From the NCBI GenBank assembly GCA_004138175.2, contig RYFE02000050.1:1-35728 (forward strand): DNA of 35,728 nucleotides, in the 5' to 3' direction. This document shows positions 9,859-24,437 of the stretch, piece by piece. Below the pieces are notes generated by a model. It was not told the DNA's origin. It searched no databases and saw only the letters and a program-made list of their open reading frames with translations. The number at the start of each line of letters is the position of its first letter. The stretch's first letter is position 1. A program made the position numbers and the translations under genes. Source of the stretch: Chloroflexales bacterium ZM16-3 (GTDB taxonomy: Bacteria > Chloroflexota > Chloroflexia > Chloroflexales > Chloroflexaceae).

Positions 9859-10724
9859 TACCGCCCGACAAACTCCAACTCCGCGCCGCCGATACGAATA
9901 CGGTCGCCGCTACGCAGCGGGCGAGACGACCCAGGCTCCACCGCCAGCTCACCGACCTGCGCCAGCCCATCGGTATTCGGCAGCACCGCCAGCTCAAAGC
10001 CGGAGTCGGCCCGGCGCACCACCGCGTGACGCCAGGCCACCCCGGCGTCCGGCAGATACAGGTCATTGCCATCATAGCGACCAATCGACGCGCTATCTGT
10101 CACCTCGCGCACCAGCCCTGCCTGCTCGCCGACGATCACCCGCAGCTCACCGCGAGCGAACACCTGGCGCGCCAGCGGGATCAGCCCGCCAATACACGCC
10201 CCAATAATCACCAGGCCAACCCCGCTCAGGGCCACCTGTGCCACACCGGCCTGCGCACGAAACAGCTGGGTCAACCCCTCGTAGAGCAATCCGCCCGCCA
10301 GGCCACCGACAAGCCCGCCCAGCGCAGCATAGGTCGCCCGCTGGGGACGCCGGCTCACCAGCAGATCGCCGAGGCCGATCAGCAGGCCCAGCAGCATCCA
10401 GCTCAGCGCGCGGCCAGCCCAGCCACCCAGCAGCGCAAGGAAGACGCCCTGAGCCAGCAGCATCCCCAGCGCCCCAGCGGCCACGCCGGCCAGCCCACCC
10501 AAAATACCATCGCGCACGGCCCGCAGCGGCTTCCCCTTCACCATCGCCCCATCGGCGGCGGCAACCAGCGCGCCAATACAGAGGCCCAGCCCCGCGCCGA
10601 CAAACGCCGCCGCCGGCCAGATCCCCCAGGTCTGGGTGACAAAGCTCCCAACCGACCACCAGCCTGCCAGCCCACCCAGCGCCCCAAACACCGCCGAGTA
10701 ATAGACCTGTAGCCGCTTACTCAT
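9858..10724 (-). CDS. Polytopic membrane protein with C-terminal FHA domain
   Basis: 288 aa. Residues 1-190 are Gly/Ala/Leu-rich helices with repeated GG-x-AGG patterns, typical of glycine-zipper membrane segments. The C-terminal 85 residues form an FHA domain (ASIGRYDGNDLYLPDAGVAWRHAVVRR, later LRSGDRIRIGGAELEFV). FHA domains bind phosphothreonine; the usual S-x-x-H is replaced by AWRHA here. The start overlaps the end of the VWA/zinc-ribbon gene by 8 nt, so the two form an operon. Together they look like a membrane signalling or surface module; the ligand is unknown. Confidence 0.85.
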   Translation of the reverse strand: MSKRLQVYYSAVFGALGGLAGWWSVGSFVTQTWGIWPAAAFVGAGLGLCIGALVAAADGAMVKGKPLRAVRDGILGGLAGVAAGALGMLLAQGVFLALLGGWAGRALSWMLLGLLIGLGDLLVSRRPQRATYAALGGLVGGLAGGLLYEGLTQLFRAQAGVAQVALSGVGLVIIGACIGGLIPLARQVFARGELRVIVGEQAGLVREVTDSASIGRYDGNDLYLPDAGVAWRHAVVRRADSGFELAVLPNTDGLAQVGELAVEPGSSRPLRSGDRIRIGGAELEFVGR

Positions 10725-12120
10725 CGCTCACCCCATTTCCTGTTCGCGCCCCTTCGCGCTCCCCCGCGTTCGTGATCCGAGCAACCACCTCTGCGCCACA
10801 CTCGGCGCAGAACGTAGCGCCGGGGAGCAGCGGGCGACCGCACATATCGCAGAACGTGCGTCGTTCGTGAGAGGCAGTGGCGGGTGCCGGCTGCGTCGCG
10901 CCACAGCGGCCACAGAACCTCGCCCCCGGCCGCAGCTGCGCGTCGCAGCTCACGCAGCGCTGGCTCGCCACAGCGGGCGCGCGGTCAGGCACAGGTGCCA
11001 CCACAATCACCGGGGGGACGACCGCCACCTGGGGCGGCGCGGATTCGGCGGCAAGCGAGGGTGCATCGCGCCGTCGCGCGGACAGGAAGCCCGGCAGCAG
11101 CAGCAGCCCGAGCAGCGGGAGAAGGAGCGCCGCGCCAACCAGCGGGCTCGAGGTTACATTAATCAAGTGGCGCTCGGTATAGCCCGCCCCCGCGCTGATG
11201 CCCGCCGCAGTCACCTGAATATCGCGCCGCGTCCCATCATAGAAAGGCCGCGGGCTCGCATAGGTCAGCTGATACTCGCCCTGTATGCTCCCGGCGAGCG
11301 AGGTGTAGAGATCAGCCAGGTCGGCCGCATCTGGGCTATAGTAGTAGGTGCCATCCGTGCCCGTGGCGATCTGGCGCAGCACACGCTCATCAACCCCGCT
11401 GTCGCCGCCGCCACTCCGCTCACCCAGGCCGACCACATACACCGGCTGGCCGGCCGCACTGGCGTAGTCGATCGCCTCGCGCATGCTGTGCGAGCTGCCG
11501 GCGTCAACTGGGCAAGAGTTTGGTTCGCGGCAGTCCTGTCCATCGGTGAGCACCAGCAGCACCCGTCGGCCCGGCTGGCCCCGCAGCAGATCAACCCCCG
11601 CAACAATCCCATCGTAGAGCGCAGTGCCGTCAGCGGGGTTCAGACGATCAATAGCATAGTGCAGAGCGCTCTGGTCATCCGTGAAGGGCGCGACCGTCCG
11701 CACACTATTGTTGAAGCTGATCAGGGCGGCATGGTCACCGGGACGCAGCAGCTGCACAAAGGCGTCAGCCGCCGCGCGGGCACCCTCGATCTTACCCGCG
11801 TCCTCCATACTGCCGGAGCGGTCGATCACCAGCGCGGTGCTGATCGCGCTGCCGCCCGCGCCAACGAAGCCAGTCAGATCGACCGACGAGCCGTCCTCAA
11901 TAATCTGGAAGTCGGACTGGGAGAGATCGGCGCGCGGGGCACCGGCGGGGTCATCCACCGAGGTGAAGATCGACACCTGCGGGTAGGCGCTCGTATCGAC
12001 CTGCGTGACACGCACCTGCCCACCGTCGCCAGAGTCCAAGCGATTGGTCGGCAGAAGCAGGGCAAGGCCCAGCATAAGGGCAAGAAAGAGGGCGACAATA
12101 ATCAGAGGTAAGCGGCGCAT
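10717..12120 (-). CDS. VWA-domain membrane protein with tandem C-terminal zinc ribbons
   Basis: 467 aa. An N-terminal hydrophobic segment (about 5-23) is followed by a short beta region, then a von Willebrand A domain with the MIDAS motif DRSGSMEDAGK and LVLTDGQDC, then a second membrane helix (about 325-345, VGAALLLPLLGLLLLPGFL). The cytoplasmic tail carries two double-Cys modules, CVSCDAQLRPGARFCGRCG and FCDMCGRPLLPGATFCAECG, which would each bind zinc. The VWA domain would lie outside the membrane and bind a metal-dependent protein partner. ATG 12120 has GGAGG eight bases upstream. The gene overlaps the FHA gene at its 3' end. Confidence 0.88.
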   Translation of the reverse strand: MRRLPLIIVALFLALMLGLALLLPTNRLDSGDGGQVRVTQVDTSAYPQVSIFTSVDDPAGAPRADLSQSDFQIIEDGSSVDLTGFVGAGGSAISTALVIDRSGSMEDAGKIEGARAAADAFVQLLRPGDHAALISFNNSVRTVAPFTDDQSALHYAIDRLNPADGTALYDGIVAGVDLLRGQPGRRVLLVLTDGQDCREPNSCPVDAGSSHSMREAIDYASAAGQPVYVVGLGERSGGGDSGVDERVLRQIATGTDGTYYYSPDAADLADLYTSLAGSIQGEYQLTYASPRPFYDGTRRDIQVTAAGISAGAGYTERHLINVTSSPLVGAALLLPLLGLLLLPGFLSARRRDAPSLAAESAPPQVAVVPPVIVVAPVPDRAPAVASQRCVSCDAQLRPGARFCGRCGATQPAPATASHERRTFCDMCGRPLLPGATFCAECGAEVVARITNAGEREGARTGNGVSDE

Positions 12121-12222: not shown

Positions 12223-12603
12223 TCATCGGACCGAATTGATCATCGCCGTGGCGGCATGCTCAAAATAGCCGCGCATGATCGACCGTGCCGGCTCAGCGAT
12301 TCCGACCGCATCGATCGCGGCGAGCATATGGCCTAGCCAGGCATCACGCTCGGCCTGCCCAATCACAAAAGGGGCGTGGCGCATGCGCAGGCGCGGATGT
12401 CCACGGCGCTGGCCGTACGCACCCGGCCCACCAAAATACTGCACAAGGAACAGGTACTGGTGCTCTTTGCCTGGGCCGAGATCATCGGGGAAGAGCGACC
12501 GTAGCAGCGGATCTTGCTCAACCTGGGCATAGAAATAATCCACCAGGCGTCGAAATGTCTCGGCACCGCCAACAGACTCATAGACGCTCATCTCGTCTGG
12601 CAT
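12223..12603 (-). CDS. glbO: Truncated haemoglobin (group II, GlbO-like)
   Basis: About 126 aa. The sequence YESVGGAETFRRLVDYFYAQVEQDPLLRSLFP, then HQYLFLVQYFGGP, RGHPRLRMRHAPF (containing the proximal His region) and ARDAWL-type helix G is a classic 2/2 globin of group II. The role is oxygen/NO/peroxide binding; in a phototroph facing oxygen it may protect metabolism. ATG 12603 and ATG 12591 are both reasonable starts; a TATGATAAT element at 12619-12627 on the minus strand suggests a promoter that excludes the longer reading frame starting at 12657. A 6-bp hairpin (12201-12217) lies just after the stop. Confidence 0.9.
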   Translation of the reverse strand: MPDEMSVYESVGGAETFRRLVDYFYAQVEQDPLLRSLFPDDLGPGKEHQYLFLVQYFGGPGAYGQRRGHPRLRMRHAPFVIGQAERDAWLGHMLAAIDAVGIAEPARSIMRGYFEHAATAMINSVR

Positions 12604-12879
12604 AGAATGGTACAATCCATTATCATACATCTGCAATCTGCAAGAATAGTGTAGCACGATGAAGATGACAGGGCTGGCTTACAAATCATACAAGGTGGGA
12701 GCCCGCCCCCACCGATATCCCGCACCGATCAGCGCACAGATAACAGGCGCAGGATGCGAGAAATAATGACATGAGCCACCGTATGACACGACGCATTACG
12801 CACAGCTTCTGAGCAGATTCGGCGCATTAGAGCCGCACAATGCGCCCTAGCCATAGCCCGTTCATACGAGCAATTTTGG
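12604..12879. other. Intergenic region between divergent globin and chlorosome cluster
   Basis: This part of the 488-bp gap before the first ArsA gene has no convincing coding frame. It holds the probable globin promoter (about 12619-12646, minus strand), a copy of the ATCTGCA heptamer found at 1735-1800, and a GGTGGG/CCCACC hairpin (12694-12713). I see nothing else recognisable. Confidence 0.6.
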
Positions 12880-12908
12880 TTGACACTCCCTGACAATCGT
12901 GGTACTAT
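12880..12908 (+). promoter_or_regulatory. Sigma-70-type promoter of the chlorosome cluster
   Basis: TTGACA (12880-12885) and TACTAT (12903-12908) are separated by 17 bp, a near-consensus housekeeping promoter. It would start a transcript about 180 nt before the first ArsA-type gene. All genes from here to 30985 are on the plus strand, so this may drive at least the csmA end of the cluster. Confidence 0.7.
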
Positions 12909-13091
12909 TGCAGCACAGCCAGAGAGACGCTACAACTATTTTGATACGAGTCACTTTTGGCATTTAAGCAAAAAAGCTGACCGTCCATCACAAAGCTCTC
13001 TATTATGCGGCCTCGTTGCCGCAGCGCGGTCGGTTCAGGCTACCCGCTCGCTTGGTACTAGTTTGTGCATCGCGAACCAGGAAAGGCTCAA

Positions 13092-14291
13092 ATGCGTACT
13101 CTTATCTTTACGGGAAAGGGCGGCGTGGGGAAGACCAGCGTCGCTGCGGCAACTGCACTAAGGGCTGCCGACATGGGGTTGCGCACCTTGGTTATGAGTA
13201 CCGACCCGGCGCATAGCCTGGCGGACTCGCTTGATCTCGAAGGTCCGCTCGGGCCAGATCCCGTGAAGATTGCACCCAACCTAGACGCGCTTGAGGTCAG
13301 CATCTACCACGACATCCAGTCAAACTGGGGTGTGGTGCGCGAGCACTTCTCCCAACTGATGGCCGACCAGGGCGTGCAGGGCATCCTCGCCGACGAAATG
13401 AGCGTCCTCCCCGGCATGGAGGAGGCGCTGCCGCTCATTCGCATCAAGAAGCACAAAGATGAGGGCACCTACGATCTGCTCGTGATCGACTGCGCCCCCA
13501 CCGGCGAGACGCTGCGGCTGCTCTCCTCGCCCGAGACCTTTAAGTGGGCCATGGGCATGCTGCGCGGGGCCGAGAAGTTTGTGATCAAGCCGCTCCTGCG
13601 GCCGATGAGCAAGCTCAATCCCGCCCTCAACAAGATGGTCGCCCCCACCGAGGTCTACGAGGCCGTTGACGATATGTTCGAGCAGATGGTTGGCGTCACG
13701 CAGATCCTGACCAACCCGCTTGAGACATCGGTTCGGCTGGTGATGAACCCCGAGAAGATGGTTATTAAGGAGAGCCAGCGCGCCCTCACCTATCTCTCGA
13801 TGTATGGGATGACCGTTGATACAGTGGTGGTCAATAAGATTCTACCGGTCGACCAGGACAGCGGCTACCTGAACCACTGGAAAGACGTGCAGCAGCGCTA
13901 CCTCCAAGAGGTGCAGCACTCGTTCAACCCGCTGCCCATCCGTCACGTACCCTACTATAGCGAAGAGGTTGTGGGTATCGAGAAGCTCCGTGCGATGGGC
14001 CTTGATATCTATGGCGATGTAGATCCGACGGCGATCGTCTATAAAGAGGCACCGATGGATCTTGCGAAGCTGGCCGATGGGACGTATCGCGTCAAGCTAA
14101 AGCTGCCCTTCGCCGATGTTAGCCAACTCGACCTATTCCAGAATGGAGATGAGTTGGTGGTGCAGATCGGCGATTTCCGGCGGATTATGACACTGCCGGT
14201 GAGTCTGGCCGGGCTCGAAGCGGGCCAGGCCGAGATGGAGGGGCAGTGGCTGATCGTGCCCTTCTTCGCAGCCCAGGGAGTTACGAACTAA
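13092..14291 (+). CDS. ArsA/Get3-type ATPase with C-terminal HSP20-like domain (first copy)
   Basis: 399 aa. The deviant Walker A GKGGVGKTS at residues 8-16 carries the signature Lys. Switch I is STDPAHSLADSLD, switch II DCAPTGETLRLL, and the adenine-loop motif MNPEKMVIKESQR is present, so it should be an active dimeric ATPase. The last 65 residues (from YRVKLKLPFADV to WLIVPFF) match the HSP20-like module found in bacterial ArsA homologues. No Get3-type CxxC zinc motif is seen. ATG 13092 is preceded by AGGAAAGG. Arsenical efflux is unlikely: no arsB, arsD or arsR is present and csmA follows 71 bp downstream. I infer a role in delivering or inserting chlorosome envelope proteins. Confidence 0.92.
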   Translation: MRTLIFTGKGGVGKTSVAAATALRAADMGLRTLVMSTDPAHSLADSLDLEGPLGPDPVKIAPNLDALEVSIYHDIQSNWGVVREHFSQLMADQGVQGILADEMSVLPGMEEALPLIRIKKHKDEGTYDLLVIDCAPTGETLRLLSSPETFKWAMGMLRGAEKFVIKPLLRPMSKLNPALNKMVAPTEVYEAVDDMFEQMVGVTQILTNPLETSVRLVMNPEKMVIKESQRALTYLSMYGMTVDTVVVNKILPVDQDSGYLNHWKDVQQRYLQEVQHSFNPLPIRHVPYYSEEVVGIEKLRAMGLDIYGDVDPTAIVYKEAPMDLAKLADGTYRVKLKLPFADVSQLDLFQNGDELVVQIGDFRRIMTLPVSLAGLEAGQAEMEGQWLIVPFFAAQGVTN

Positions 14292-14300
14292 CACAGGGGT

Positions 14301-14322
14301 CTACCGGGGCTCCGCCCCGTAG
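14301..14322 (+). promoter_or_regulatory. Hairpin in the csmA leader
   Basis: CTACCGGGGC and GCCCCGTAG pair with one bulged C around a 3-nt loop. It lies between the ArsA stop and the strong csmA ribosome-binding site (AGGAGGT at 14350-14356). Without a T-run it is more likely an RNA-processing or stability element than a terminator. It could raise the csmA message relative to the upstream gene. Confidence 0.5.
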
Positions 14323-14362
14323 CCTATAAGGGAGCGTCCGGTTTACCTGAGGAGGTATTTGT

Positions 14363-14608
14363 ATGGCCACGTCACGAGGCTGGTTCTCGGAGTCCGCAGG
14401 TCAGGTGGCGCAGATCGGCGACATCATGTTCCAGGGGCACTGGCAGTGGGTTTCCAACGCGCTGCAGGCCACGTCGGCAGCGGTGGAGACGATCAATCGC
14501 AACGCCTACCCCGGCATTTCCCGCAGCGGCAGCGGCGAGGGTGCGTTCAGCGCCCCCACCGTGAGCAGCTTCCGCCCGAAGCGCATCAGCTCGCGCTTCA
14601 ATCGCTAG
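14363..14608 (+). CDS. csmA: Chlorosome baseplate protein CsmA precursor
   Basis: 81 aa. CsmA binds bacteriochlorophyll a and forms the paracrystalline baseplate of the chlorosome. The segment RGWFSES, VAQIGDIMFQGHWQWVSNALQ and INRNAYPG is nearly that of Chloroflexus aurantiacus CsmA as I remember it. His26 (His25 after Met removal), in QGHWQW, is the conserved pigment ligand. In Chloroflexus the primary product is about 80 aa and the mature protein 51 aa, so a C-terminal extension is removed; here the corresponding tail begins after about residue 52 and is basic (RPKRISSRFNR). The AGGAGGT site six bases before ATG is among the best in the window, as expected for an abundant protein. Confidence 0.97.
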   Translation: MATSRGWFSESAGQVAQIGDIMFQGHWQWVSNALQATSAAVETINRNAYPGISRSGSGEGAFSAPTVSSFRPKRISSRFNR

Positions 14609-14616
14609 CCAGCTAT

Positions 14617-14704
14617 AGGGTGCAGGGGACAGGAAACAGGGAACAGCGGGCACCACGCCTCGCCACACTCTGCGTCCTGTGCCCTGTACCCTGTACTCTG
14701 TAAC
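14617..14704. repeat. Degenerate inverted heptamer repeat after csmA
   Basis: The left arm has five 7-bp units of the type GGGNACA (14617-14652). The right arm has five units of the reverse complement type (CTGTACC, 14670-14704). The array fills the gap between csmA and the next gene and its right arm ends just before ATG 14708, where no Shine-Dalgarno sequence is present. Confidence 0.8.
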
Positions 14705-14707
14705 CTC

Positions 14708-15838
14708 ATGATCAATCTGCTCTACCATAGTCATACGGTCGTCCCCGCCCACCTCGAAGAACTCGAGACGCTGAGACTGCTGGAGCGTGATGAGCAGGTG
14801 CTCGTCGCGCTTGACGGTGTGCTCCTGAACGCCGCAGGACATCGCCTGAGCGGTCCCACACTTCATGACTACTGTCTGGTGACGACGCTGCGTGTGCTGC
14901 TCTGGGCGCGCGACTACAGCGGTCACACATGCTACGCATTCCCGCTCACTGAGCTCGAATTGGTGCAGGGGGCTGGTCTCGACCCGCTCCACGCCCAGAT
15001 CTCGCTCACCTTCACGGCCTCTGAAGACGATGAAGAGGAACAGAGCTTCACGCTGACCCTGCTGCCCGTCGCCAATCTTCAGGCCGCGCTGAAGCTCATT
15101 CGTAGCGCTGCCGAGACCGCCCGAGAACTAGCTGCGACCGGAGTGGACGCACGCGAGGCCGGGCCAGAGATTCTCTCGGTGCTCGGTGAGCAGATCTATG
15201 GGCATGTCGATGGGCTCCGCCCAGGGGAGAAGCCATATCGCTGGCCCGGTGCCCCCGCACAGCCCCTGACGCCCGTTCCGGGGTTCTACCAGGACGTCGT
15301 ATCGCTGCCGCCCGAGAAGATCTATTCCGCCAGCCGACTGGCTCGTTCGGCATGGGACACGCTGCGCCGCTCATTGCGCGAGGCGGAGTTGCCCTTCGAC
15401 CTGAATGGCTCTAGTCTGCGCGATCTTACCGAGGCGGTGCGCGCCATCAACGATCTGGTGCATACGGTAGCGACCAATCCGAGCGCCCAGCAAATGGCGA
15501 TGGCGTTCCTGAACAACCGGCAGGGATCGCGCAGTGCCCCCGCCGCACCCGAAGGCCCCGCCGCAGCAGCGCCCCCGCCGCCACAGCCCGCAGCGGCTGA
15601 TGCTGCCGGTGTGTATCACGAAATCCCGTTGCGCCGCCGTGAGAATCAAGCTTCTGCGAGTCCGAAGCCCCCCACTGCCCCGCCGATGGCCGCCGCTGCC
15701 CCGCCGACGGAGCCGCCCGACCGCCGCGAGATCCCGCTGCGACGTCGCGGACCTGCCAGCTCTGGCCCACGGCCGTTCTCCCGAACCCCCATACCCATCA
15801 GCGGTTCCGGCGACGCTGATGTTGACGATGGCCGGTAG
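14708..15838 (+). CDS. PH-like domain protein with repeated EIPLRRR tail motif (paralogue of next gene)
   Basis: 376 aa, not a family I can name. Residues about 15-130 resemble a bacterial pleckstrin-like (bPH/YokE) fold: LLERDEQVLVALDGVLL, YCLVTTLRVLLWARDYSG, YAFPLTELELV. A helical middle (about 130-280) follows. The tail from about 280 is disordered and Pro/Ala-rich and holds the motif EIPLRRR twice (HEIPLRRREN and REIPLRRRGP). The next gene has the same N-terminal pattern, so the two are diverged duplicates. There is no signal peptide or membrane helix. Its place between csmA and a second ArsA gene suggests a chlorosome-associated adaptor, with the Arg motifs contacting lipid or partner proteins; this is inference. 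Confidence 0.85.
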   Translation: MINLLYHSHTVVPAHLEELETLRLLERDEQVLVALDGVLLNAAGHRLSGPTLHDYCLVTTLRVLLWARDYSGHTCYAFPLTELELVQGAGLDPLHAQISLTFTASEDDEEEQSFTLTLLPVANLQAALKLIRSAAETARELAATGVDAREAGPEILSVLGEQIYGHVDGLRPGEKPYRWPGAPAQPLTPVPGFYQDVVSLPPEKIYSASRLARSAWDTLRRSLREAELPFDLNGSSLRDLTEAVRAINDLVHTVATNPSAQQMAMAFLNNRQGSRSAPAAPEGPAAAAPPPPQPAAADAAGVYHEIPLRRRENQASASPKPPTAPPMAAAAPPTEPPDRREIPLRRRGPASSGPRPFSRTPIPISGSGDADVDDGR

Positions 15839-15910
15839 CTCGATGGGCCTGTGGATATGGCCTGTGCCGCCGACCAGCCCCCGTCAACAGACCTAGGAGG
15901 TAGTAAGATC

Positions 15911-17359
15911 ATGAGTACTCGCCCATACCTTGGCATCAATGTCGATCCGGCTAGCGCCGAGGAGATACGCCACCGAGGCATCCTCAATGAGGACGAGACC
16001 TTACTGGCGCTTTTCGACGGTATGCTGCTGGACGAGAATCGCCGCCGTATTGGAGGAGTTTCCCTCTCCGATTTTATTGCCCTCACCGACCGTAGGCTCA
16101 TTACCTGGGCGCGCGGCTTCTTCAACGACGTGATCGATAGCTTCCTCTGGCAGGATGTTGATGTGGCGAAGGCTGAGACCTGGGACCCCTGGCACGGGCG
16201 GGTGGTGCTCGCCTTCCGCTTACCAGCTGTCGCCCCACGCACTCGCCGCATCGCCGTCAAGGGGACGGCGGATGAGCGGCCCGAGGGTGAGCGCGTCATG
16301 GTCAATACGCTCGACTATATGCCTGCCGATGATGTCTCGCCGCTGTCGAACATGATCGCATGGACGGGCGACCAGGTTATCTCAAAGGTGCCCAGTCAGG
16401 CGATCATCGAAGCCTTCGCCGAGCAATTCCCCGCGCATGATCGGCAGGCGTTCTCGCCCTTCTTCTCGTCTATGACGCCAGAGCCGGCAGCTCCGCCCCC
16501 GCCGCCCACACCCATCGAGGAGCCTCGGCGGCGCTGGTGGCAGCGCAAGGCGAGCAGCGCTAGCGATTCGGCATCGGTAAACAGTGGCAACTTGATCGCT
16601 GACTATGAGAGCCGCCGTAGCGCCCAGCCCGCTGGTGATGGCACGCCAGCTCTGCCTATGTCAAACGCCGGCCAGATGCCGATTATGGTAAATCAGCCGA
16701 GCATGTACGAGGTAAGTCGCACGCTCCGGCTGCTCCTGGAAGCTCCACGCCGCCTCGCTGGGGGCGCGCGCCGCGCTGGCGAGATGATGAGCGGTGCAGG
16801 CGAACTCGTAAACGGCCTTCAGGATCCCCACGTTCGCCGCAACGCCATGCTCGGCATCTACCAAGCCGCCGCTCAGCAGGAGGCCGAAAATGGCCCCCTC
16901 GCGCCAGTAGGGCCGGTGGTGCGGGCCGTCGTTCGCTTCAGCGAGCCTCTGCCCAACGAGGATGGTGGCCAGGCACAAGTGCAAGCCCAGTCCCGTCGCC
17001 TCCAGGTGCGTGCCGCTGTCAGGCGTGACCCGCCCGTCTATGCTGGAGCCGCTGCGTCGGCAGACCTCGCGCCGGAACCTACCGCACCAGCGGTAAGACG
17101 TGCCCCGCCCGTCTATGCTGAAGCCGCTGCGTCGGCAGACCTCGCGCCGAAACCAACTGCACCAGCCACAACCGGATCGGTGCGACGTAGCATTAGCGTA
17201 CGCCGCGCTGAACCAGAGCCGATCGCTGAAGTGGAAGAGGCCGCCCCTGTACTTCGGCAGGTGCCCGTCGTCTCGCGCCGCATCACCCCTAATCGCGACA
17301 ACGCGAATCTCGCACCTCAGCAGCATCCCGTTCCAGCAGGTGTCAGCGAGGAAGAGTAA
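15911..17359 (+). CDS. PH-like domain protein with Pro/Arg-rich repeated tail
   Basis: 482 aa from ATG 15911, which follows AGGAGG; the frame is open further upstream but without a site. Residues about 15-165 match the N-terminal domain of the preceding gene (ILNEDETLLALFDGMLLDE, FIALTDRRLITWARGF, DPWHGRVVLAFRL). A Pro-rich linker with PAAPPPPPTPIEEPRRRWW follows, then a helical block, then a low-complexity tail with a 25-residue tandem duplication (VRRDPPVYAGAAASADLAPE type, DNA 17018-17092 and 17093-17167). The tail contains several Arg-pair motifs (SVRRAEPEP, VVSRRI). Soluble, no catalytic motif visible. By position it is a candidate chlorosome envelope or assembly factor acting with the flanking ArsA proteins. 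Confidence 0.85.
   Translation: MSTRPYLGINVDPASAEEIRHRGILNEDETLLALFDGMLLDENRRRIGGVSLSDFIALTDRRLITWARGFFNDVIDSFLWQDVDVAKAETWDPWHGRVVLAFRLPAVAPRTRRIAVKGTADERPEGERVMVNTLDYMPADDVSPLSNMIAWTGDQVISKVPSQAIIEAFAEQFPAHDRQAFSPFFSSMTPEPAAPPPPPTPIEEPRRRWWQRKASSASDSASVNSGNLIADYESRRSAQPAGDGTPALPMSNAGQMPIMVNQPSMYEVSRTLRLLLEAPRRLAGGARRAGEMMSGAGELVNGLQDPHVRRNAMLGIYQAAAQQEAENGPLAPVGPVVRAVVRFSEPLPNEDGGQAQVQAQSRRLQVRAAVRRDPPVYAGAAASADLAPEPTAPAVRRAPPVYAEAAASADLAPKPTAPATTGSVRRSISVRRAEPEPIAEVEEAAPVLRQVPVVSRRITPNRDNANLAPQQHPVPAGVSEEE
17018..17167 (+). repeat. 75-bp in-frame tandem duplication
   Basis: Two adjacent 75-bp units inside the Pro/Arg-rich tail encode near-identical 25-residue blocks. The second differs at a few codons (DPPVYAG to APPVYAE, PEPTAPA to PKPTAPA). 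This indicates recent expansion of the tail. Confidence 0.85.
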
Positions 17360-17425
17360 TTCGGTGCCTACGTCCCCGCTCCCACACCGGCGCGGGCACA
17401 TGGCCACGAGCACCCGGAAGGCACC

Positions 17426-18670
17426 ATGACGCGAGTCATTATCTACTCAGGTAAGGGCGGTACCGGCAAGACGACCATCTCGGCCGCCACAGCAACGATG
17501 CTCGCCGGTATGGGTCGGCGAACGCTGGTACTCTCTAGTGACCCTGCTCACTCACTGGCTGATGCGCTCGGGGCCGAGATTAGCCGCGACCGGGTCACCC
17601 TGATCGCGCCATGCCTCTATGGCCTTGAGATTGATACGATCTACGAGTGGCGACAAAATCTGAGTGGATTTCAGCAGTTCGTTACCTCGACCTATTCCAA
17701 CCGCGGCGTCGAGCGATCAACGGCCGCCGAGTTGGCGAACCAGCCAGGGCTTGATGAGATCCTCGCCCTCCAACGGGTGATGTCTGAAGCTCAGAGCGGT
17801 CGCTGGGACGCGATCGTGCTCGACACCGCACCAACAGGTAATACGCTGCGCCTTCTGGCCTACCCCGAGCTGATCATCGGCGGCGATGCAGGCAAGAAGT
17901 TCTTCCGAGTCTACCGAGGGCTCGCCAATGTCGCCCGGCCCTTCCGCCGCGACCTGCCCGAGGATCGCTTCTTCGATGAGGTGAGCACGCTCCTGGAGCG
18001 TATGGAGCAGTTGGCAAACTTCTTGCTGAGTCCGGAGGTGAGCCTCCGGTTGGTGCTGAACCCTGAGAAGTTGCCGCTCATGGAAACGCGCCGCGCCTAT
18101 ACCTTCATCAACCTCTATGGCCTCATGCTCGACGCAGTGATGGTGAATAAGATTCTGCCCCGCCGCGCCGACCTCGGCCCCTACTTCGACTACTGGGTCA
18201 AACTACAGCAAGGCTACCTCGATGATATCGACGGCAGCTTTGCGCCAACGCCAATCTTCCGCACGGTGCTTCAGGAGGGCGAGCCGATCGGGATCGCCGC
18301 CCTTGATGCGATCGCCCATGCGACATTCGGCGAGACTGACCCAGGCGGGATGCTTTTCGACGAGCGGCCGATCTGGCTCGATCAGTGGAATGATGAGGGA
18401 GAGCCTGGCCTGTTCGACCTCTGCCTGCGCCTGCCCTTCCTTAATGAAGACGAGGCAGTCGATATCGCCCGCGATGGCACCGACCTGACCGTTACCGTCG
18501 GTCGGATTCAGCGCACCTTCGCCCTGCCACGAATTCTCTATGACTGCACGCTCGGAAACCACCGCTATGAGGATGGCGTGCTCCGCCTGGAGTTCTACGA
18601 AACCTCAGATGGCAGACGGTCAGAGCGCACGCCCGAGCCCGCTGATAACATGCGCGTTGAAGCTGCTTAA
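17426..18670 (+). CDS. ArsA/Get3-type ATPase with C-terminal HSP20-like domain (second copy)
   Basis: 414 aa. It has SGKGGTGKTT near the N terminus, switch I SSDPAHSLADALG, switch II DTAPTGNTLRLL and the loop LNPEKLPLMETRR, so all ATPase motifs are intact. The C-terminal module runs from FDLCLRLPFLNE to LRLEFYE, followed by a short charged tail. It is clearly paralogous to the copy at 13092 (shared NLYGLMLDAVMVNKILP-type region) but diverged. ATG 17426 has GGAAGG seven bases upstream. It lies between the PH-like proteins and the motif-less ArsA paralogue, which starts 91 bp later beyond an inverted repeat. Proposed role: ATP-driven chaperoning of chlorosome envelope proteins, perhaps as a heterodimer with one of the other two. 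Confidence 0.92.
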   Translation: MTRVIIYSGKGGTGKTTISAATATMLAGMGRRTLVLSSDPAHSLADALGAEISRDRVTLIAPCLYGLEIDTIYEWRQNLSGFQQFVTSTYSNRGVERSTAAELANQPGLDEILALQRVMSEAQSGRWDAIVLDTAPTGNTLRLLAYPELIIGGDAGKKFFRVYRGLANVARPFRRDLPEDRFFDEVSTLLERMEQLANFLLSPEVSLRLVLNPEKLPLMETRRAYTFINLYGLMLDAVMVNKILPRRADLGPYFDYWVKLQQGYLDDIDGSFAPTPIFRTVLQEGEPIGIAALDAIAHATFGETDPGGMLFDERPIWLDQWNDEGEPGLFDLCLRLPFLNEDEAVDIARDGTDLTVTVGRIQRTFALPRILYDCTLGNHRYEDGVLRLEFYETSDGRRSERTPEPADNMRVEAA

Positions 18671-18675
18671 CGAAC

Positions 18676-18761
18676 AAGGGTGAACGGCGAAGGATGAAGG
18701 GTGAAGCTCAACCGCTTTAGACCTTTGTGTTTCCATCCTTCATCCTTCACCCTTCACCCTT
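18676..18761. repeat. Inverted heptamer repeat (AAGGRTG)n between ArsA genes
   Basis: The left arm 18676-18706 has units AAGGGTG, AACGGCG, AAGGATG, AAGGGTG. The right arm 18734-18761 has four reverse-complement units (CATCCTT, CACCCTT). The arms can pair around a loop of about 27 nt. The right arm directly abuts the ATG of the third ArsA paralogue, so that gene lacks a normal ribosome-binding site while the left arm is rich in SD-like AAGG. Confidence 0.88.
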
Positions 18762-19862
18762 ATGAGACTACTGATCTTCTCTGGACACACGATGCTCCAG
18801 CAGAGCGCCGCAGCGCTCGCCACGGCATGTCACGCCGCCCGGCGCGGGCAGCGCGTCCTGCTCGCATCGACCGGCCCTAGTCACCTGATCGGGGCGCTGC
18901 TTGGGCAGAACCTTAGCCCACGTCCGCTTGAGCTAGAGCCAAATCTGGCCGCAGTAGAACTCGGCCCGCTCGATGAGATCGGCGAGCGCTGGGAGCAACT
19001 GCGCCCAACATTCCGCAGCGGGCTGGCCTCGCGCCTGCGCGATATTGCCAGCGACGAACTGCCGAGCTTCCCCGGCATCGATGCCGTAAGTATGCTGCTG
19101 GTGGCCGAACGCGCCCGCCAGACTGGTCGTTTTGACGTGATGGTCATCGATGGGCCTTCGCCCGACAACCTCGTTCGCGCACTCGCCCTGTCCGATGCCA
19201 TGCGCTGGCTGCTCCGGCTTGTCTTCGGGCTTGATCGCGGCCCCGGTCGTTCGCGCACATCCCAAGAGTCGGCACTCATCCCCACCGCACTTATCCCTGT
19301 CAGCACATCGTCGCCGCTCCAGGATCTGCGCGCTGAGTTTGAGGAGTATCGCGCTCGGCTCGACAGCTCTACTGGGGCACGGGTGCGGCTGGTGACAAGC
19401 CCCGGTGAACTCCATCTGCCGCCCCTGCGCAATGACCTCATCTCCCTGGGGCTCCACGGGATAGCTGTGGACGAGGTGCTTGTGCAAGCAGAGCCCGTGG
19501 AAGTGAACCTAGAAACGCGTCACATCTTCGCCCCTGAGGGAGGCTCTGTCCGCCCGACGCTCCGTGTTGGCCCCCTGCCCACCGCCCCGGCAGACCGCGA
19601 CACATGGGCGCTACGCGGCGCAGCATTCTACCGCGATGGTGATATTGGCACGCCTGCGCCACCCGCGCATAGTGCCGAGCGAGAGCTACGCCTAGCAATC
19701 CCCTTCCTCGATGCCAAAACGCTCGATATCGCCGTGGCAAATGAAGAGGTGGTGATCCGGCTTGGGCAGTTGCGGCGTCACGTGCTGCTGCCCGGCCTGA
19801 GCGAGGGCGGACGCCTGCGTGCCCGCGTCGAGGGCGAGACTCTTCGCCTGTGGGTTGAGTAA
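18762..19862 (+). CDS. ArsA-type paralogue lacking nucleotide-binding motifs (pseudo-ATPase) with HSP20-like domain
   Basis: 366 aa. It aligns along its length with the two ArsA-type neighbours: N-terminal MRLLIFSGH strand, STGPSHLIGALLG in place of STDPAHSLAD, FPGIDAVSMLL in place of the PGxxE region, DGPSPDNLVRAL in place of DTAPTGNTLRLL, and the C-terminal module ELRLAIPFLDAKT to LRLWVE. The Walker A is replaced by GHTMLQQSA (no Gly-rich loop, no Lys), the switch I Asp is Gly, switch II TG is lost, and the NPEK loop is SPGE. It cannot bind ATP in the ArsA manner. The frame is intact, so it is not a decayed pseudogene. A regulatory or structural partner of the active copies is the simplest reading. 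Confidence 0.9.
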   Translation: MRLLIFSGHTMLQQSAAALATACHAARRGQRVLLASTGPSHLIGALLGQNLSPRPLELEPNLAAVELGPLDEIGERWEQLRPTFRSGLASRLRDIASDELPSFPGIDAVSMLLVAERARQTGRFDVMVIDGPSPDNLVRALALSDAMRWLLRLVFGLDRGPGRSRTSQESALIPTALIPVSTSSPLQDLRAEFEEYRARLDSSTGARVRLVTSPGELHLPPLRNDLISLGLHGIAVDEVLVQAEPVEVNLETRHIFAPEGGSVRPTLRVGPLPTAPADRDTWALRGAAFYRDGDIGTPAPPAHSAERELRLAIPFLDAKTLDIAVANEEVVIRLGQLRRHVLLPGLSEGGRLRARVEGETLRLWVE

Positions 19863-19863
19863 C

Positions 19864-19979
19864 GCTGAGTGCTGAGTGCTGAGTGCTGAGTGAGATGCCC
19901 AGCGCTTCATGGAGGTCGGCAATGAAGAGCCAGGTTGTAGAGATGCCAAATCTCAACACTCACCATTCAACGCTCAGTA
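19864..19979. repeat. Inverted heptamer repeat (GCTGAGT)4, right arm inside coding sequence
   Basis: Four perfect GCTGAGT units occupy 19864-19891, directly after the ArsA paralogue's stop. A degenerate inverted arm of the same period (CTCAACA, CTCACCA, TTCAACG, CTCAGTA) lies at 19952-19979 and falls within the N-terminal codons of the next gene. The loop contains that gene's GGAGGT site and ATG. Confidence 0.75.
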
Positions 19980-20923
19980 CGCAGAAGTATGAAACCTACC
20001 GGGCCGAGATCGAGGAGAAGCTGGCAGGCAAGCTCCGCCAGGGCGAGCGCCGACGCCTTGAGCACGAGCGCACCATGCTCAGCCGGGCACAGTTTATAGA
20101 GGTGAATGGGATCGTCCATCACTATCAGGATATTGGCCCACGGAATGGCGAGCCCCTGGTGCTTATCCATGGCTGGGACTGCTCAGCGCTCTGGTGGCAT
20201 CATATTGTTGAGCCGCTGGCTGCCGCTGGCTACCGCGTGATTAGCTACGACCTGAAGGGGCACGGATTCTCCGATAGCGACCCGGCAAATGGCTACACGG
20301 TCAATGGGTTCAGCAACGACCTCCGCGCCCTCAGCGCGGCCCTCGGACTCGGCCCGCACCATGTGGCTGCCTTCTCGCTCGGCGCGTTCGTCGCCCTGCA
20401 CTACGGGGCAACCTTTCCCGAACAGGTGCGCTCACTGACCTTCTTTAACTTCAGCCTGCTCACGTACAACCGGATCGCCTCGGCGTTGATCCCGATAACG
20501 CTCGACACGGTCTTCAACCGGCTGCTGCGACCGATCACGCAGCGCGGGCTGTGGTGGGTCCCGTTTGTCTATGCCCGTCTGGTGCTGGCGCAGAACACAC
20601 CGCCGGTAGGCGATATTAAGCTCGGCGCGCTCAGCCTGCGCTGCTGCGACCCCGAGGCGGTGCGCGTCTCGGCCCACGAGCTCTCCCGCCGCGAAATACT
20701 TGATGCAGTGCCCGATCAGATGCGCAAAGTGACCCACCCGATCCTGCTTGTCGCCGGTGCCGGCGACCCGATTATGCGGCCCGCTGACGGGCGTAAACTG
20801 ATGAGCCTGGCACAACACGGTACCTACCTGGAAGTCCCTAAGTGCGGACACCTGATCTTGTTCGAACTGCCTGAGCAAGTGACGCAGATCCTGCGCCTAT
20901 TTCTGCGCGGCGTAAAGGGGTAA
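19922..20923 (+). CDS. Alpha/beta-fold hydrolase
   Basis: 333 aa. The fold is seen from LVLIHGWDCSALWW through VISYDLKGHGFSD, the nucleophile elbow AAFSLGAF, GAGDPIMRP (acid) and KCGHLILFE (catalytic His), so the triad is complete. The elbow reads A-x-S-x-G rather than G-x-S-x-G. ATG 19922 is chosen for its GGAGGT site; about 60 residues including a charged helix (YRAEIEEKLAGKLRQGERRRLEHER) precede the hydrolase domain. The first codons overlap the right arm of the heptamer repeat, so the true N terminus may be slightly later. The substrate is unknown; position in the chlorosome island suggests an ester of lipid, wax or pigment. Stop and next start are 2 nt apart. Confidence 0.88.
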   Translation: MKSQVVEMPNLNTHHSTLSTQKYETYRAEIEEKLAGKLRQGERRRLEHERTMLSRAQFIEVNGIVHHYQDIGPRNGEPLVLIHGWDCSALWWHHIVEPLAAAGYRVISYDLKGHGFSDSDPANGYTVNGFSNDLRALSAALGLGPHHVAAFSLGAFVALHYGATFPEQVRSLTFFNFSLLTYNRIASALIPITLDTVFNRLLRPITQRGLWWVPFVYARLVLAQNTPPVGDIKLGALSLRCCDPEAVRVSAHELSRREILDAVPDQMRKVTHPILLVAGAGDPIMRPADGRKLMSLAQHGTYLEVPKCGHLILFELPEQVTQILRLFLRGVKG

Positions 20924-20925
20924 AT

Positions 20926-21810
20926 ATGCAACTGCATCTTCGTTCCGGCGGCCAACGCATGGCCATCGATATGGAGCGGGCTGGCGATCAGCGGGTGGCG
21001 GTCGGTGAGTATACCTACCGCCCCCTCCACATGGCCCGCAAGGTGCGTCGCATGGCCACCCAGATGTGGGGGGCCAGCCTCACTCCCGGGATCCTTGAGC
21101 AGCGGCTGATCTTCGAGGTGCCTGAAGGCAACTCTCCGATGAGCCTCTGGAGCGATAGCGGGAGCTTCTCACCCGCCACCGGGTCGATTGTGAGCCTCGG
21201 ACGCTGGGACGAGGACGACAGCGTTGGGATCGCCCTGCACGAACTCGCACACGAGATGCATATGCGGTGCGGCGGCTACGACAATAGCGACGGTGTTATC
21301 CGCGAGGGGCTCTCGCTGCTCGCCGAGCGCGAGGCGGGGATGCGTCGCACCTTCGAGCGCGAGCCATACTACACGGCAAGTAACCTGATCAGCCAGCTCT
21401 GTGAGCTTCCTACATTCTCTCGCCAGCCCTTCGCAAAGCGCTGGGATGAGATTGCCGCTCTCAGTAGCGACGTTGGCCTCTCTGATCTGGTCAATTTCTA
21501 CCTCGACCGCAGCGAGCGCTTTGGGCTGGGCCGCTGGCTCAAGCGCTATAGCGACAACCTCGAACTGCGCGACGCTATGCTCAATCATATAGCGGCCGTA
21601 ACACTTCGCTATAGCCTGAGCTACCGCCGCCATATCCTTGAGCAAACCGTGCGCTGTGAGCGCGAGATCACGCCTGAGCAGTTCTCCTATGTACTCGACT
21701 CGATCTCTACTCTTGATCGGCGCTACCCAAACGATGATCTCGATCAGATTATTGATTTCTGCTTTGCACCGCACACCCGCCAGAGGCGGCGGCTGCTCGC
21801 CTTAGGCTAA
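20926..21810 (+). CDS. HExxH metallopeptidase-like protein (gluzincin type)
   Basis: 294 aa. The motif ALHELAHEMH places a zinc-type HExxH at residues 105-109, and REGLSLLAERE follows with Glu127 about 18 residues later. This is the arrangement of gluzincin 'peptidase MA-like' proteins, where an EGL/EGxA segment supplies the third ligand. A beta-rich region (YRPLHMARKV, ILEQRLIFEVPEG) precedes the site and a helical region follows. No signal peptide or membrane helix is visible, so it probably acts in the cytoplasm, where chlorosomes lie. The start has an AAAGGGG site. Its place in the chlorosome island makes it a candidate for the unknown protease that removes the CsmA C-terminal extension; that link is inference. 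The remaining sequence was not recognised. Confidence 0.82.
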   Translation: MQLHLRSGGQRMAIDMERAGDQRVAVGEYTYRPLHMARKVRRMATQMWGASLTPGILEQRLIFEVPEGNSPMSLWSDSGSFSPATGSIVSLGRWDEDDSVGIALHELAHEMHMRCGGYDNSDGVIREGLSLLAEREAGMRRTFEREPYYTASNLISQLCELPTFSRQPFAKRWDEIAALSSDVGLSDLVNFYLDRSERFGLGRWLKRYSDNLELRDAMLNHIAAVTLRYSLSYRRHILEQTVRCEREITPEQFSYVLDSISTLDRRYPNDDLDQIIDFCFAPHTRQRRRLLALG

Positions 21811-21860
21811 TGTATCGTTTGGCGCATCGCGCCATCTATGTGCGAGAATGAGGTAGTGCT

Positions 21861-22529
21861 ATGGCCAAGTATGATCAGAGTAACAACCCGTACAGCTGGA
21901 TGCCAGATTTCCTCCGCCGCTTCCTGAACCTCGATTATGCTGATTCGCAGAGCAATGAGCCAAGCGTTGCCTCTCGATCAGCAAGCTTCACACCGACATC
22001 AACAGGCGCTGCGGGCACAACTTGGTCGCCACCGAACGAGCCGACCTTCAAGCCTTCCGGTATGGAAAGCTACACACCGCCAGCCGGTGGCTTCACTCCC
22101 TCGGCGACCACGATGGCCCCGCCCGCGCCGGCACCTCGCCCATCCAGCAGCGACGCCAGCGCGAGTCCTGTCACTCCATCTGTGCAGTTTGATGGCCCCA
22201 TCCAGCCAATAACCTTCCTGGTGCGCGCCTTCGCTCGCGGCGTGCTCCCCCCTCAGGGGCTCGATGCGTTTACCAAGGAGCTTGGCGCCACAAGCACCGA
22301 TGTCTGGAATATGTATACCCACTGGGCGCGCTTCCAGACAGAGGATGTCTTCCGCTTTGGCCGTGAAATGATCACGACTATCTCCAATGCGCTACCTGCG
22401 GGTAACCCGCAGATGTCACAATCCCGCCGCATCAAGGTGACGGTTGCCGATGGCAATGTAGTGCCGATATCGTCAGTTGCCACTGATGATCCTAAGCCAG
22501 CCACGGGCGCGGACAAGGCGAAGAGTTAG
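21861..22529 (+). CDS. Disordered Pro/Ser/Thr-rich protein with short phasin-like helical region
   Basis: 222 aa, not recognised. The first 25 residues (NPYSWMPDFLRRFLNLDYAD) form a short amphipathic aromatic segment. Residues about 30-110 are low-complexity Pro/Ser/Thr/Ala. A conserved-looking helical block (about 112-185: ITFLVRAFARGVLPPQGLDAFTKEL, VWNMYTHWARFQTEDVFRFGREMITTISNAL) follows, and a short charged tail ends the protein. Amphipathic helices on a disordered protein resemble phasins or other lipid-monolayer-coating proteins. The chlorosome is bounded by a lipid monolayer, so a coat protein is a reasonable hypothesis. The start has a GAGG site. It could equally be a scaffold of no known class. 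Confidence 0.75.
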   Translation: MAKYDQSNNPYSWMPDFLRRFLNLDYADSQSNEPSVASRSASFTPTSTGAAGTTWSPPNEPTFKPSGMESYTPPAGGFTPSATTMAPPAPAPRPSSSDASASPVTPSVQFDGPIQPITFLVRAFARGVLPPQGLDAFTKELGATSTDVWNMYTHWARFQTEDVFRFGREMITTISNALPAGNPQMSQSRRIKVTVADGNVVPISSVATDDPKPATGADKAKS

Positions 22530-22605
22530 CACGTCCTTCAGCAGAACATTAGGTGACACGTGTACAGGGAGCGCTACGCCCCTCCATATGCACCTAGAGG
22601 AAAGA

Positions 22606-24114: not shown

Positions 24115-24437
24115 CCTGGTCTTTGTCCACGTGCGCGCACGCACATTGCGCGAGAGCCAGCGCTTGGGCAGCACCATGTGACCGTGACGGCACCCTGGAG
24201 TTGCGCGGCCTGTTGTTTGAAAGATCCGCTTTTTGTACTATAATACAAAAGCATGGTCTAGAAGGCATCTGCCCATCAGGTAATCCACCTCCTGTGCCCA
24301 AGGAAGTAAGGGCCACAGGCTCATCATATAACGGCGCTTGCCGCTCTACGATGATCGCGAACACGCTGTTCATAGAAGAAACGTATTGCGAGCAGGCACC
24401 ACGTAAAATTCGGAACCCACCACCAGAAAGCGACAGG
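24115..24437 (+). other. 323-bp leader region of bchU
   Basis: No convincing gene lies here; the open frame that continues from bchU has no family similarity. The region holds the promoter/dyad at 24217-24250 and a leader of about 185 nt before bchU. I see no riboswitch that I can name. Confidence 0.6.
24217..24250 (+). promoter_or_regulatory. bchU promoter with -10 box inside a perfect dyad
   Basis: TTGAAA (24217-24222) and TATAAT (24239-24244) are spaced by 16 bp. The -10 lies within TTTTGTA-CTATAA-TACAAAA (24231-24250), two exact 7-bp arms. A protein bound there would block RNA polymerase directly, so this looks like a repressor-controlled second promoter for the bchU-bchK-csmM-csmN part of the island. 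Confidence 0.7.

Follow-up and report, generated by a model that had tools for sequence, protein, structure and literature searches.

The nearest described relatives of the proteins considered here are the Get3d proteins, in which the Get3 body is followed by a C-terminal alpha-crystallin domain (Barlow et al. 2023, PMC10248533, used here, like most papers cited below, in excerpt). The excerpts portray Get3d as an ATPase able to bind tail-anchored proteins and as occurring in green sulfur and nonsulfur bacteria, with several copies in some genomes and with degenerate catalytic residues in some members. The same architecture is met in the window, by which is meant the whole 35,728-nucleotide stretch of contig RYFE02000050.1 from Chloroflexales bacterium ZM16-3 that was analysed: three such proteins, Ars1, Ars2 and Ars3, are encoded there around csmA, the gene for the baseplate protein of chlorosomes (the light-harvesting sacs of green bacteria), and two further genes, P3 and P4, lie between csmA and Ars2. 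From sequence comparison and structural modelling the cluster is rather likely to be a chlorosome-biogenesis module composed of active Get3d ATPases and PH scaffolds together with Ars3, a single Get3-like subunit that is not catalytic. The family as such is already known; the linkage of Get3d to csmA and the pseudo-ATPase lineage that includes Ars3 are apparently unreported in the open-access literature, where no account of either was found among the papers listed, earlier mention in subscription papers or books being possible, and where ‘chlorosome’ and ‘tail-anchored’ were not found to be mentioned jointly. Neither do the excerpts of PMC10248533 mention csmA linkage. An original prediction, made from the letters of this DNA, had pointed to the arrangement; its observation is confirmed, its interpretation is partly supported, and the chlorosome link is stronger than it knew.

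Ars1 (13092-14291, plus strand) and Ars2 (17426-18670, plus) are Get3d-type ATPases with intact active-site motifs, GKGGVGKT and GKGGTGKT respectively, each accompanied by DPAHS, APTG and NPEK, and thus carry the Get3/ArsA ATPase domain with the intradimeric Walker A motif GKGGhGK[ST]. At the equivalent places Ars3 (18762-19862, plus) has GHTMLQQSA, GPSHL, GPSPDN and SPGE. In the order Ars1, Ars2, Ars3, the Pfam ArsA_ATPase model matches with E-values of 1.8e-93, 3.2e-68 and 2.2e-20 and ArsA_HSP20 (PF17886) with 8.4e-22, 4.4e-16 and 1.2e-7 (77, 58.7 and 31.6 bits, the cut-off being 22.5), all above the curated cut-offs, and the motifs are located as the original prediction said. Its assignment to ArsA/Get3 was right as to family and missed the published Get3d architecture. 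The absence of arsenic genes, which it also asserted, holds among the window proteins scanned, these being part of the window's frames; scores on TIGR04291, the ArsA pump with two ATPase domains (cut-off 650 bits), are 103, 76.5 and 20.4 for the three single-domain proteins, and with no pump-type scores an arsenic function was rejected. On the NCBIfam equivalog NF050088 (Get3_fold_NosAFP, cut-off 325 bits) they score 145, 72 and 87.7, and since these values are below the cut-off Ars1 and Ars2 are to be regarded as relatives, not equivalogs, of the Nostoc protein.

The degeneracy of Ars3 recurs. Motifs were counted in 30 loci out of 33 close orthologues, and in all 30 residues 7-15 contain no lysine, the two lysines of the intradimeric Walker A motif being missing, and the switch-I aspartate is absent. 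As to the remaining three, the P-loop of G020 is likewise free of lysine, a lysine in G018 is displaced by two residues from the first Walker position, and in G021, from a genome 71% complete, the P-loop stretch is missing from the frame and the copy is split over two frames. No internal stops occur within the listed orthologue matches, and the ratio of nonsynonymous to synonymous substitution (dN/dS) is 0.02-0.14 for six close pairs, an approximate range with dS near or above 1 in several; Ars3 is, to judge from these comparisons, under purifying selection. Over the 18 loci with all three genes, mean column conservation is 0.73 for the whole of Ars3 versus 0.89 for Ars1 and 0.85 for Ars2; the Ars3 P-loop, at 0.58, is the least conserved region of that protein measured (1.00 in both Ars1 and Ars2), and the HSP20 domain stands at 0.82, 0.90 and 0.78 in Ars3, Ars1 and Ars2 (P-loop, HSP20-domain and whole-protein values are used, the switch and A-loop windows of Ars1 and Ars2 being off by a few residues). 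In the motif alignment, which has 22 Ars3 rows, one of them without P-loop, the replacement motifs GPxH at switch I and DGPxPD at switch II are kept in most orthologues while the P-loop drifts. An AlphaFold2 model built with 20 orthologues (predicted local distance difference test score, pLDDT, 87; predicted template modelling score, pTM, 0.87) has the Get3 fold, and its best structural matches are the Get3d structures, with Z of 26.7 and 21.3. NosGet3d (All4481, PDB 3igf/8egk) comes first, with a Foldseek E of 7e-22 and a VIA-align superposition of 326 residues at a root-mean-square deviation of 3.7; it and AtGet3d (8elf) have the same Get3 body plus C-terminal alpha-crystallin domain as the Ars proteins. 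Ars3 is thus a predicted pseudo-ATPase, conserved and of the same fold as Ars1 and Ars2, and what the original prediction had said of the third copy, dead at its ATP site with frame and HSP20-like module intact, stood up. Sequencing error, local oddity, chance and an assembly effect were each rejected as explanations, given the absence of Walker lysines in 30/30 loci, and against chance or an assembly effect there is also the recurring gene order described below.

Ars3 is not the only such copy. A second degenerate protein, D, is encoded elsewhere in the source genome (C1:250003-251124, L094); it is 36% identical to Ars3, and both Walker lysines are absent in its 11 aligned rows. Excerpts of PMC10248533 state that Chloroflexi Get3d has a lysine at the Walker A position; unlike that, Ars3 and D are without both. 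D, set apart by a gap in E-values (7.6e-67, then 2.4e-48), is found in 41 of the 82 genomes of the order, among them G064, which we take to be Roseiflexus. In a tree of 96 proteins Ars3 (support 100/100) and D (100/97) stand jointly opposite all other copies (100/100), and in a tree of 43 proteins that includes a Nostoc fragment the pseudo clade is again apart (98/95), the placement of the fragment being unsure since its residues occupy 43% of the columns and one long branch meets another. The best NCBIfam match had suggested that Ars3 might be the orthologue of cyanobacterial and plant Get3d; with the pseudo clade staying apart, this was not upheld. The ATP site was likely lost once; such a single loss is not proven, the tree program having flagged long branches and an unusual composition. 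In a comparison of 12 loci, which included the Ars3 locus of G020, any one neighbour of D recurred in 4 at most. Two further, intact Get3d copies are present in the source genome (C62:36.4-44.2 kb, L095); one of the types they represent is found in relatives lacking csmA as well, and the second Get3d copy flanking csmA in Chlorobiota belongs to it.

How closely is all this tied to csmA? For synteny 21 csmA loci were fetched, of which 3 are cut by contig ends, and the order Ars1-csmA-P3-P4-Ars2-Ars3-hydrolase is kept in 17 of the 18 complete loci of the family besides the window, G038 being the exception. Order-wide (82 genomes) csmA is found in 33, P3 in 34, Ars2 in 34 (E<=1e-80) and a close Ars3 in 33, the P3 carriers being all 33 csmA genomes plus G026. 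Across 400 Chloroflexota genomes, drawn evenly from a larger group and scanned for csmA and for Ars2 (four candidates scored per genome for the latter), Ars2 at E<=1e-152 is present in 22/22 csmA-bearing genomes and 0/378 others, the next match being at 7e-77; the listed genomes of the two scans agree. Genomes of the order that have reaction-centre genes and no csmA (for example G004, G005 and all reaction-centre-bearing members of family f4) are without Ars2. The original prediction would have counted against itself the presence of the trio with other neighbours in Roseiflexus; the 26 genomes of f4, which we take to be the Roseiflexus family, have no Ars2 at E<=1e-80, no P3 and no close Ars3. 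Where csmA and Ars3 part company, the cases are few: csmA without Ars3 in G030 and G032, where csmA is at a contig end, and in G038; Ars3 without csmA in G021 and G026 (71% and 84% complete), both of which have cluster genes, and in G020. Within family f1, Ars3 accompanies chlorosome evidence in 32/35 genomes and is found in 1/6 of the others (Fisher p 4e-4, a value that ignores shared ancestry). That Ars2, P3 and the cluster follow csmA, and not the order at large, is supported by these distributions. Ars3 is a Chloroflexaceae addition.

The association extends to another phylum. A scan of GTDB genomes for csmA, from which 80 of 100 confirmed loci were taken, gave 72 Chlorobiota-type loci (L143-L214, L199 and L213 being from one genome) besides Chloroflexales ones (L215-L222). 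Provided that the contig extends far enough, an Ars1-type Get3d is upstream of csmA in 62/62, a PH protein downstream in 68/68 and a second Get3d after the PH protein in 65/65. Counted over all 72, the upstream Get3d is seen in 69 (62 with room and 7 without) and missed in 3, these without room; the PH protein is seen in 69 and missed in 3, and the downstream Get3d seen in 68 and missed in 4. In L152 a small gene separates the first Get3d from csmA and is presumably csmC. One csmA locus, L187, is on a contig labelled Latescibacterota; with a CsmA 98% identical it is probably mis-binned Chlorobiota. GKGGxGKT is intact in 51/51 Chlorobiota Get3d records, duplicates included, and for this reason the pseudo-copies look like a Chloroflexales innovation. 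The genome G335, of the same class but of another family outside the order, and which we take to be Candidatus Chlorohelix, has Ars1-csmA followed by one gene resembling P3 and then one resembling P4; its Ars1 stands at 62% to the closest Chloroflexaceae Ars1, its Ars2 orthologue is elsewhere in the genome, and the 6 records examined from it all keep GKGGxGKT. By HHalign its P3-like protein matches P3 at 99.8% (E 1.3e-28) and the Chlorobiota PH proteins at 98.4% (E 9e-15), and its P4-like protein matches P4 at 99.3% (E 1.2e-20). From gene order and profile comparison, then, linkage to csmA is found in more than one phylum and takes in PH proteins as well, and the chlorosome-linked Get3-type system that the original prediction proposed from a single locus is found to hold more widely. 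According to excerpts of PMC10972752, the chlorosome proteins of Chloroflexus have just two homologues in Chlorohelix besides that of csmA.

The two interleaved proteins, P3 (14708-15838, plus) and P4 (15851-17359, plus, with a probable ATG start at 15911), were put down in the original prediction as unknowns; they do lie between csmA and Ars2, but carry PH-like domains that it missed. Neither has a Pfam match at 1e-3. P4 reaches 15.4 bits with bPH_3 (E 0.027, cut-off 23) and P3 does not match it, so that by Pfam neither counts as a bacterial PH protein. In the AlphaFold2 model of P3, residues 12-140 form a confident PH-like head, matched to PH domains by both Foldseek and VIA, the latter at Z 9.1-11.5, moderately above the 7-8 quoted as the typical best for models without a clear match, and helices and a disordered tail follow. 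For P4 the PH-like fold is predicted by homology to P3 (HHalign P3-P4 98.9%), and HHalign to the Chlorobiota csmA-neighbour PH protein gives 97.4% (E 1.3e-11) for P4 and 82.8% (E 9e-6) for P3. The tails bear short basic motifs, counted in P3 and P4 frames of more than 330 amino acids, truncated ones and the P3 of G017, which is split over two frames, being left aside; relatedness of the sequences inflates the observed side of each count. In P3 tails hydrophobic-x-hydrophobic-basic-basic occurs 1.95 times per tail versus 0.02 after shuffling (in 19/20), in P4 tails basic-basic-h-x-h-basic 0.95 versus 0.01 (in 18/21), and in Chlorobiota PH tails the motif occurs 1.66 times versus 0.02 (in 48/68). 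Its forms are EIPLRRR in P3 (two in the window's protein), RRIQVRA in P4 (RRLQVRA-type in the window) and RKKIQIK or RRKKISIK in Chlorobiota, where the protein varies from 451 to 1036 amino acids over 68 loci; that at L152:10501-12813, of 770 amino acids, has six RKKxxIK-type tail repeats. The P3 of G038 is the sole one without the standard motif, having a single variant, IPLRHR, where others have 1-3 copies; this is one case.

On the reading favoured here, Ars1 and Ars2 would bind hydrophobic chlorosome proteins post-translationally, CsmA first and probably other envelope proteins, and, in a cycle powered by ATP, pass them to the forming chlorosome, which is enclosed by a lipid monolayer. P3 and P4, each with a PH-like head and a disordered tail of repeated motifs, would be scaffolds at the envelope or on the membrane side, and Ars3, having kept the Get3 body and alpha-crystallin-like domain while its ATP site is gone, would be a non-catalytic subunit that serves on the same scaffold, either as adaptor or as holding chaperone, and that may form heterodimers with an active copy. 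What we infer from the arrangement is client binding, delivery to the chlorosome and the parts played by Ars3 and the PH proteins. Several things weigh against the proposal. CsmA is not known as a classical tail-anchored protein. G038 (81% complete) goes from Ars2 directly to the hydrolase while keeping csmA, Ars1, Ars2 and a bchU match, and Ars3 is therefore dispensable. Conversely G020 has Ars3 and no csmA, P3, Ars2 or bchU match, and no Ars1 either; its diverged Ars3 (L090:9078-10196) lies among unrelated genes and has lost the switch-II aspartate too, and there is no D in that genome. Ars1-type and other Get3d copies also occur away from csmA in Chlorobiota, and the Ars2 orthologues of Chlorobiota and G335 are not beside it, which means that the family reaches beyond the csmA operon; among the open frames neighbouring those distant Ars2 orthologues (Chlorobiota L253 and G335 L257) nothing telling was seen by eye. 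The genomes counted, moreover, are related to one another, so that no count here is independent.

Of the alternatives, the one that survives best is that Ars3 acts alone, as an ATP-independent homodimeric holding chaperone with no pairing to Ars1 or Ars2; it falls a little short of an even chance. The presence of D where the genome has just one further Get3/ArsA match at E<=1e-8 (for example G064, G069, G056 and G022), like that of Ars3 without Ars1 and Ars2 in G020, is what it would lead one to expect; these cases together with G038 speak against an Ars2-Ars3 pair being obligate. The union of Ars3 and D in one clade, from which the loss of the ATP site probably predates the linkage to csmA, counts for it too. 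The position of Ars3 directly behind Ars2 in 17 of the 18 complete loci sits less easily with solitary action, fitting a functional pair without being proof of one.

That adjacency is welcome to a second view, possible though doubtful, in which Ars3 is a true heterodimer partner regulating Ars1 or Ars2. The retention of GPxH and DGPxPD in most orthologues against a drifting P-loop would accord with this, and a solved precedent has two different Get3-like chains (6bs3 A and B, Mycobacterium tuberculosis). Yet G038 keeps both Ars1 and Ars2 with Ars3 cleanly absent, and in Chlorobiota and G335 the csmA-linked copies are active ones, with no pseudo-copy among the proteins examined. Less probable again, and on balance unlikely, is that the proteins serve photosynthetic membranes generally and that the proximity of csmA is incidental. 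D, in 40/64 genomes of the order with reaction-centre matches and 1/18 without, fits such a role, as does Get3d being reported, in the excerpts of PMC10248533, across phototrophs including plants; the perfect coincidence of Ars2 with csmA, its absence from csmA-less reaction-centre genomes, and the csmA-Get3d-PH linkage in two phyla do not. That Ars3 is a decaying pseudogene, for which one could cite the lost ATP-site residues and its faster evolution relative to Ars1 and Ars2, is hardly credible given the lack of internal stops in the listed matches, the low dN/dS and the conserved C-terminal domain.

A bolder version of the module proposal joins its parts by analogy. Alpha-crystallin domains bind IxI/IPV peptides, as in BAG3, in the groove between beta4 and beta8 (PMC6212398, excerpt). 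Might the PH tail motifs be IxI/V-like ligands of the corresponding groove of Get3d, so that Get3d and Ars3 are arrayed on a membrane-bound PH scaffold like small heat-shock proteins on BAG3, with Ars3 as a dead docking subunit that tunes the hand-over of small hydrophobic coat proteins to the monolayer envelope? If so, there would be a GET-like pathway for monolayer insertion into a bacterial organelle, common to chlorosome bearers of different phyla. We consider it a long shot. Strict I-x-[IV] is enriched only in P4 and Chlorobiota tails: P3 tails have it 0.25 times each versus 0.20 after shuffling, and the two tails of G335 show no enrichment either; the basic motif is absent from 20/68 Chlorobiota tails; and, according to excerpts of PMC10248533, the alpha-crystallin domain of Get3d is packed against the Get3 body, and several features usual for such domains are missing from it. 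The basic motifs may instead bind lipid or pigment.

The remainder of the gene string, which from Ars1 on is on the plus strand throughout with short gaps between genes, is in keeping with a chlorosome setting. csmA itself is at 14363-14608 (plus; PF02043, E 3.8e-27). After Ars3 come an alpha/beta hydrolase (19949-20923, plus), the conserved next gene, whose best NCBIfam match, BchO, is below cut-off; P8 (20926-21810, plus), without a Pfam match in the profile scan but with a HELAH (HExxH) motif in 20/20 orthologue frames, and hence zinc-metallopeptidase-like; and P9 (21861-22529, plus), a conserved unknown placed in the string by synteny. CsmA loses a C-terminal extension, and P8 is on that account a candidate for the processing protease; the CsmA chain in the PDB is of 59 residues and the Chlorobaculum csmA in L152 has 80 codons. 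Further on are an O-methyltransferase resembling bchU (24123-25532, plus; Methyltransf_2, E 5.5e-26; 66% over residues 133-469 in G007) and a UbiA prenyltransferase resembling bchK (25545-26468, plus; PF01040, E 1.4e-38), taken as such because excerpts of PMC3150298 group bchU and bchK of Chloroflexus with chlorosome genes, and the cluster is therefore in a chlorosome and bacteriochlorophyll c neighbourhood. Upstream of Ars1 there are three sigma-70-like promoter matches (12740-13006, plus; best 10/12 at 12880-12908), and 12600-22600 has 7 versus 2.6 expected from shuffling; as evidence this is weak, and the promoter and terminator scan of the string is at most mildly informative. On the minus strand upstream, and named by reading only, are a VWA-like protein with zinc-ribbon-like ends (10717-12120) and a globin-like protein (12223-12657), homologues of both of which are near Ars1 in several relatives.

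Excerpts of PMC9316378 set out two rival models of chlorosome construction, and, with those of PMC10972752, indicate that few chlorosome proteins other than CsmA have been conserved from one phylum to another. The csmA-linked Get3d and PH proteins that Chlorobiota and Chloroflexota share are specific targets for deletion; they also provide bacterial Get3d, a protein that plants have retained in chloroplasts, with a concrete candidate function, and Ars3, as a natural Get3 without ATP site, allows a binding role to be separated from an ATPase role. For deletions Chlorobaculum tepidum is a tractable organism. Chloroherpeton, Chlorobium tepidum, Chloroflexus aurantiacus and Chloracidobacterium are, we take it, all chlorosome bearers. 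It is from just these four that Castillo and Saier (2010, PMC2963123, excerpt) had a four-member cluster of ArsA homologues, its C. aurantiacus member being of 407 amino acids, as is the Ars2 of G007. The C. aurantiacus proteins in their clusters 8 and 11, of 399 and 407 amino acids, have record numbers four apart, as expected if Ars1 and Ars2 flank csmA, P3 and P4, and presumably are Ars1 and Ars2. Gene context gave those authors no functional clue for either cluster, orthology was thought unlikely for cluster 11, and neither ‘chlorosome’ nor ‘csmA’ occurs in the main text. Elsewhere an ArsA insertion has been described as specific to the chlorosome-bearing suborder (PMC6180586), and the six ArsA homologues of a green sulfur bacterium were interpreted in terms of arsenite export (PMC11269200).

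Two other systems invite comparison. One is the mycobacterial pair of PDB 6bs3, in which two different Get3-like chains, A and B, are together in one structure that matches Ars3 at Z 18.1; we take the chains to be BagA/BagB, and mycobacteria are not known to have chlorosomes. The other is furnished by gas-vesicle operons (cluster 4 and one of the two members of cluster 6 in the excerpts of PMC2963123), where, as here, an ArsA-like ATPase is encoded beside genes for a protein-coated inclusion and an Hsp20 gene is in the operon, though there the ArsA protein has two domains and about 640 amino acids, the Hsp20 is separate, and the inclusion and the partners are others.

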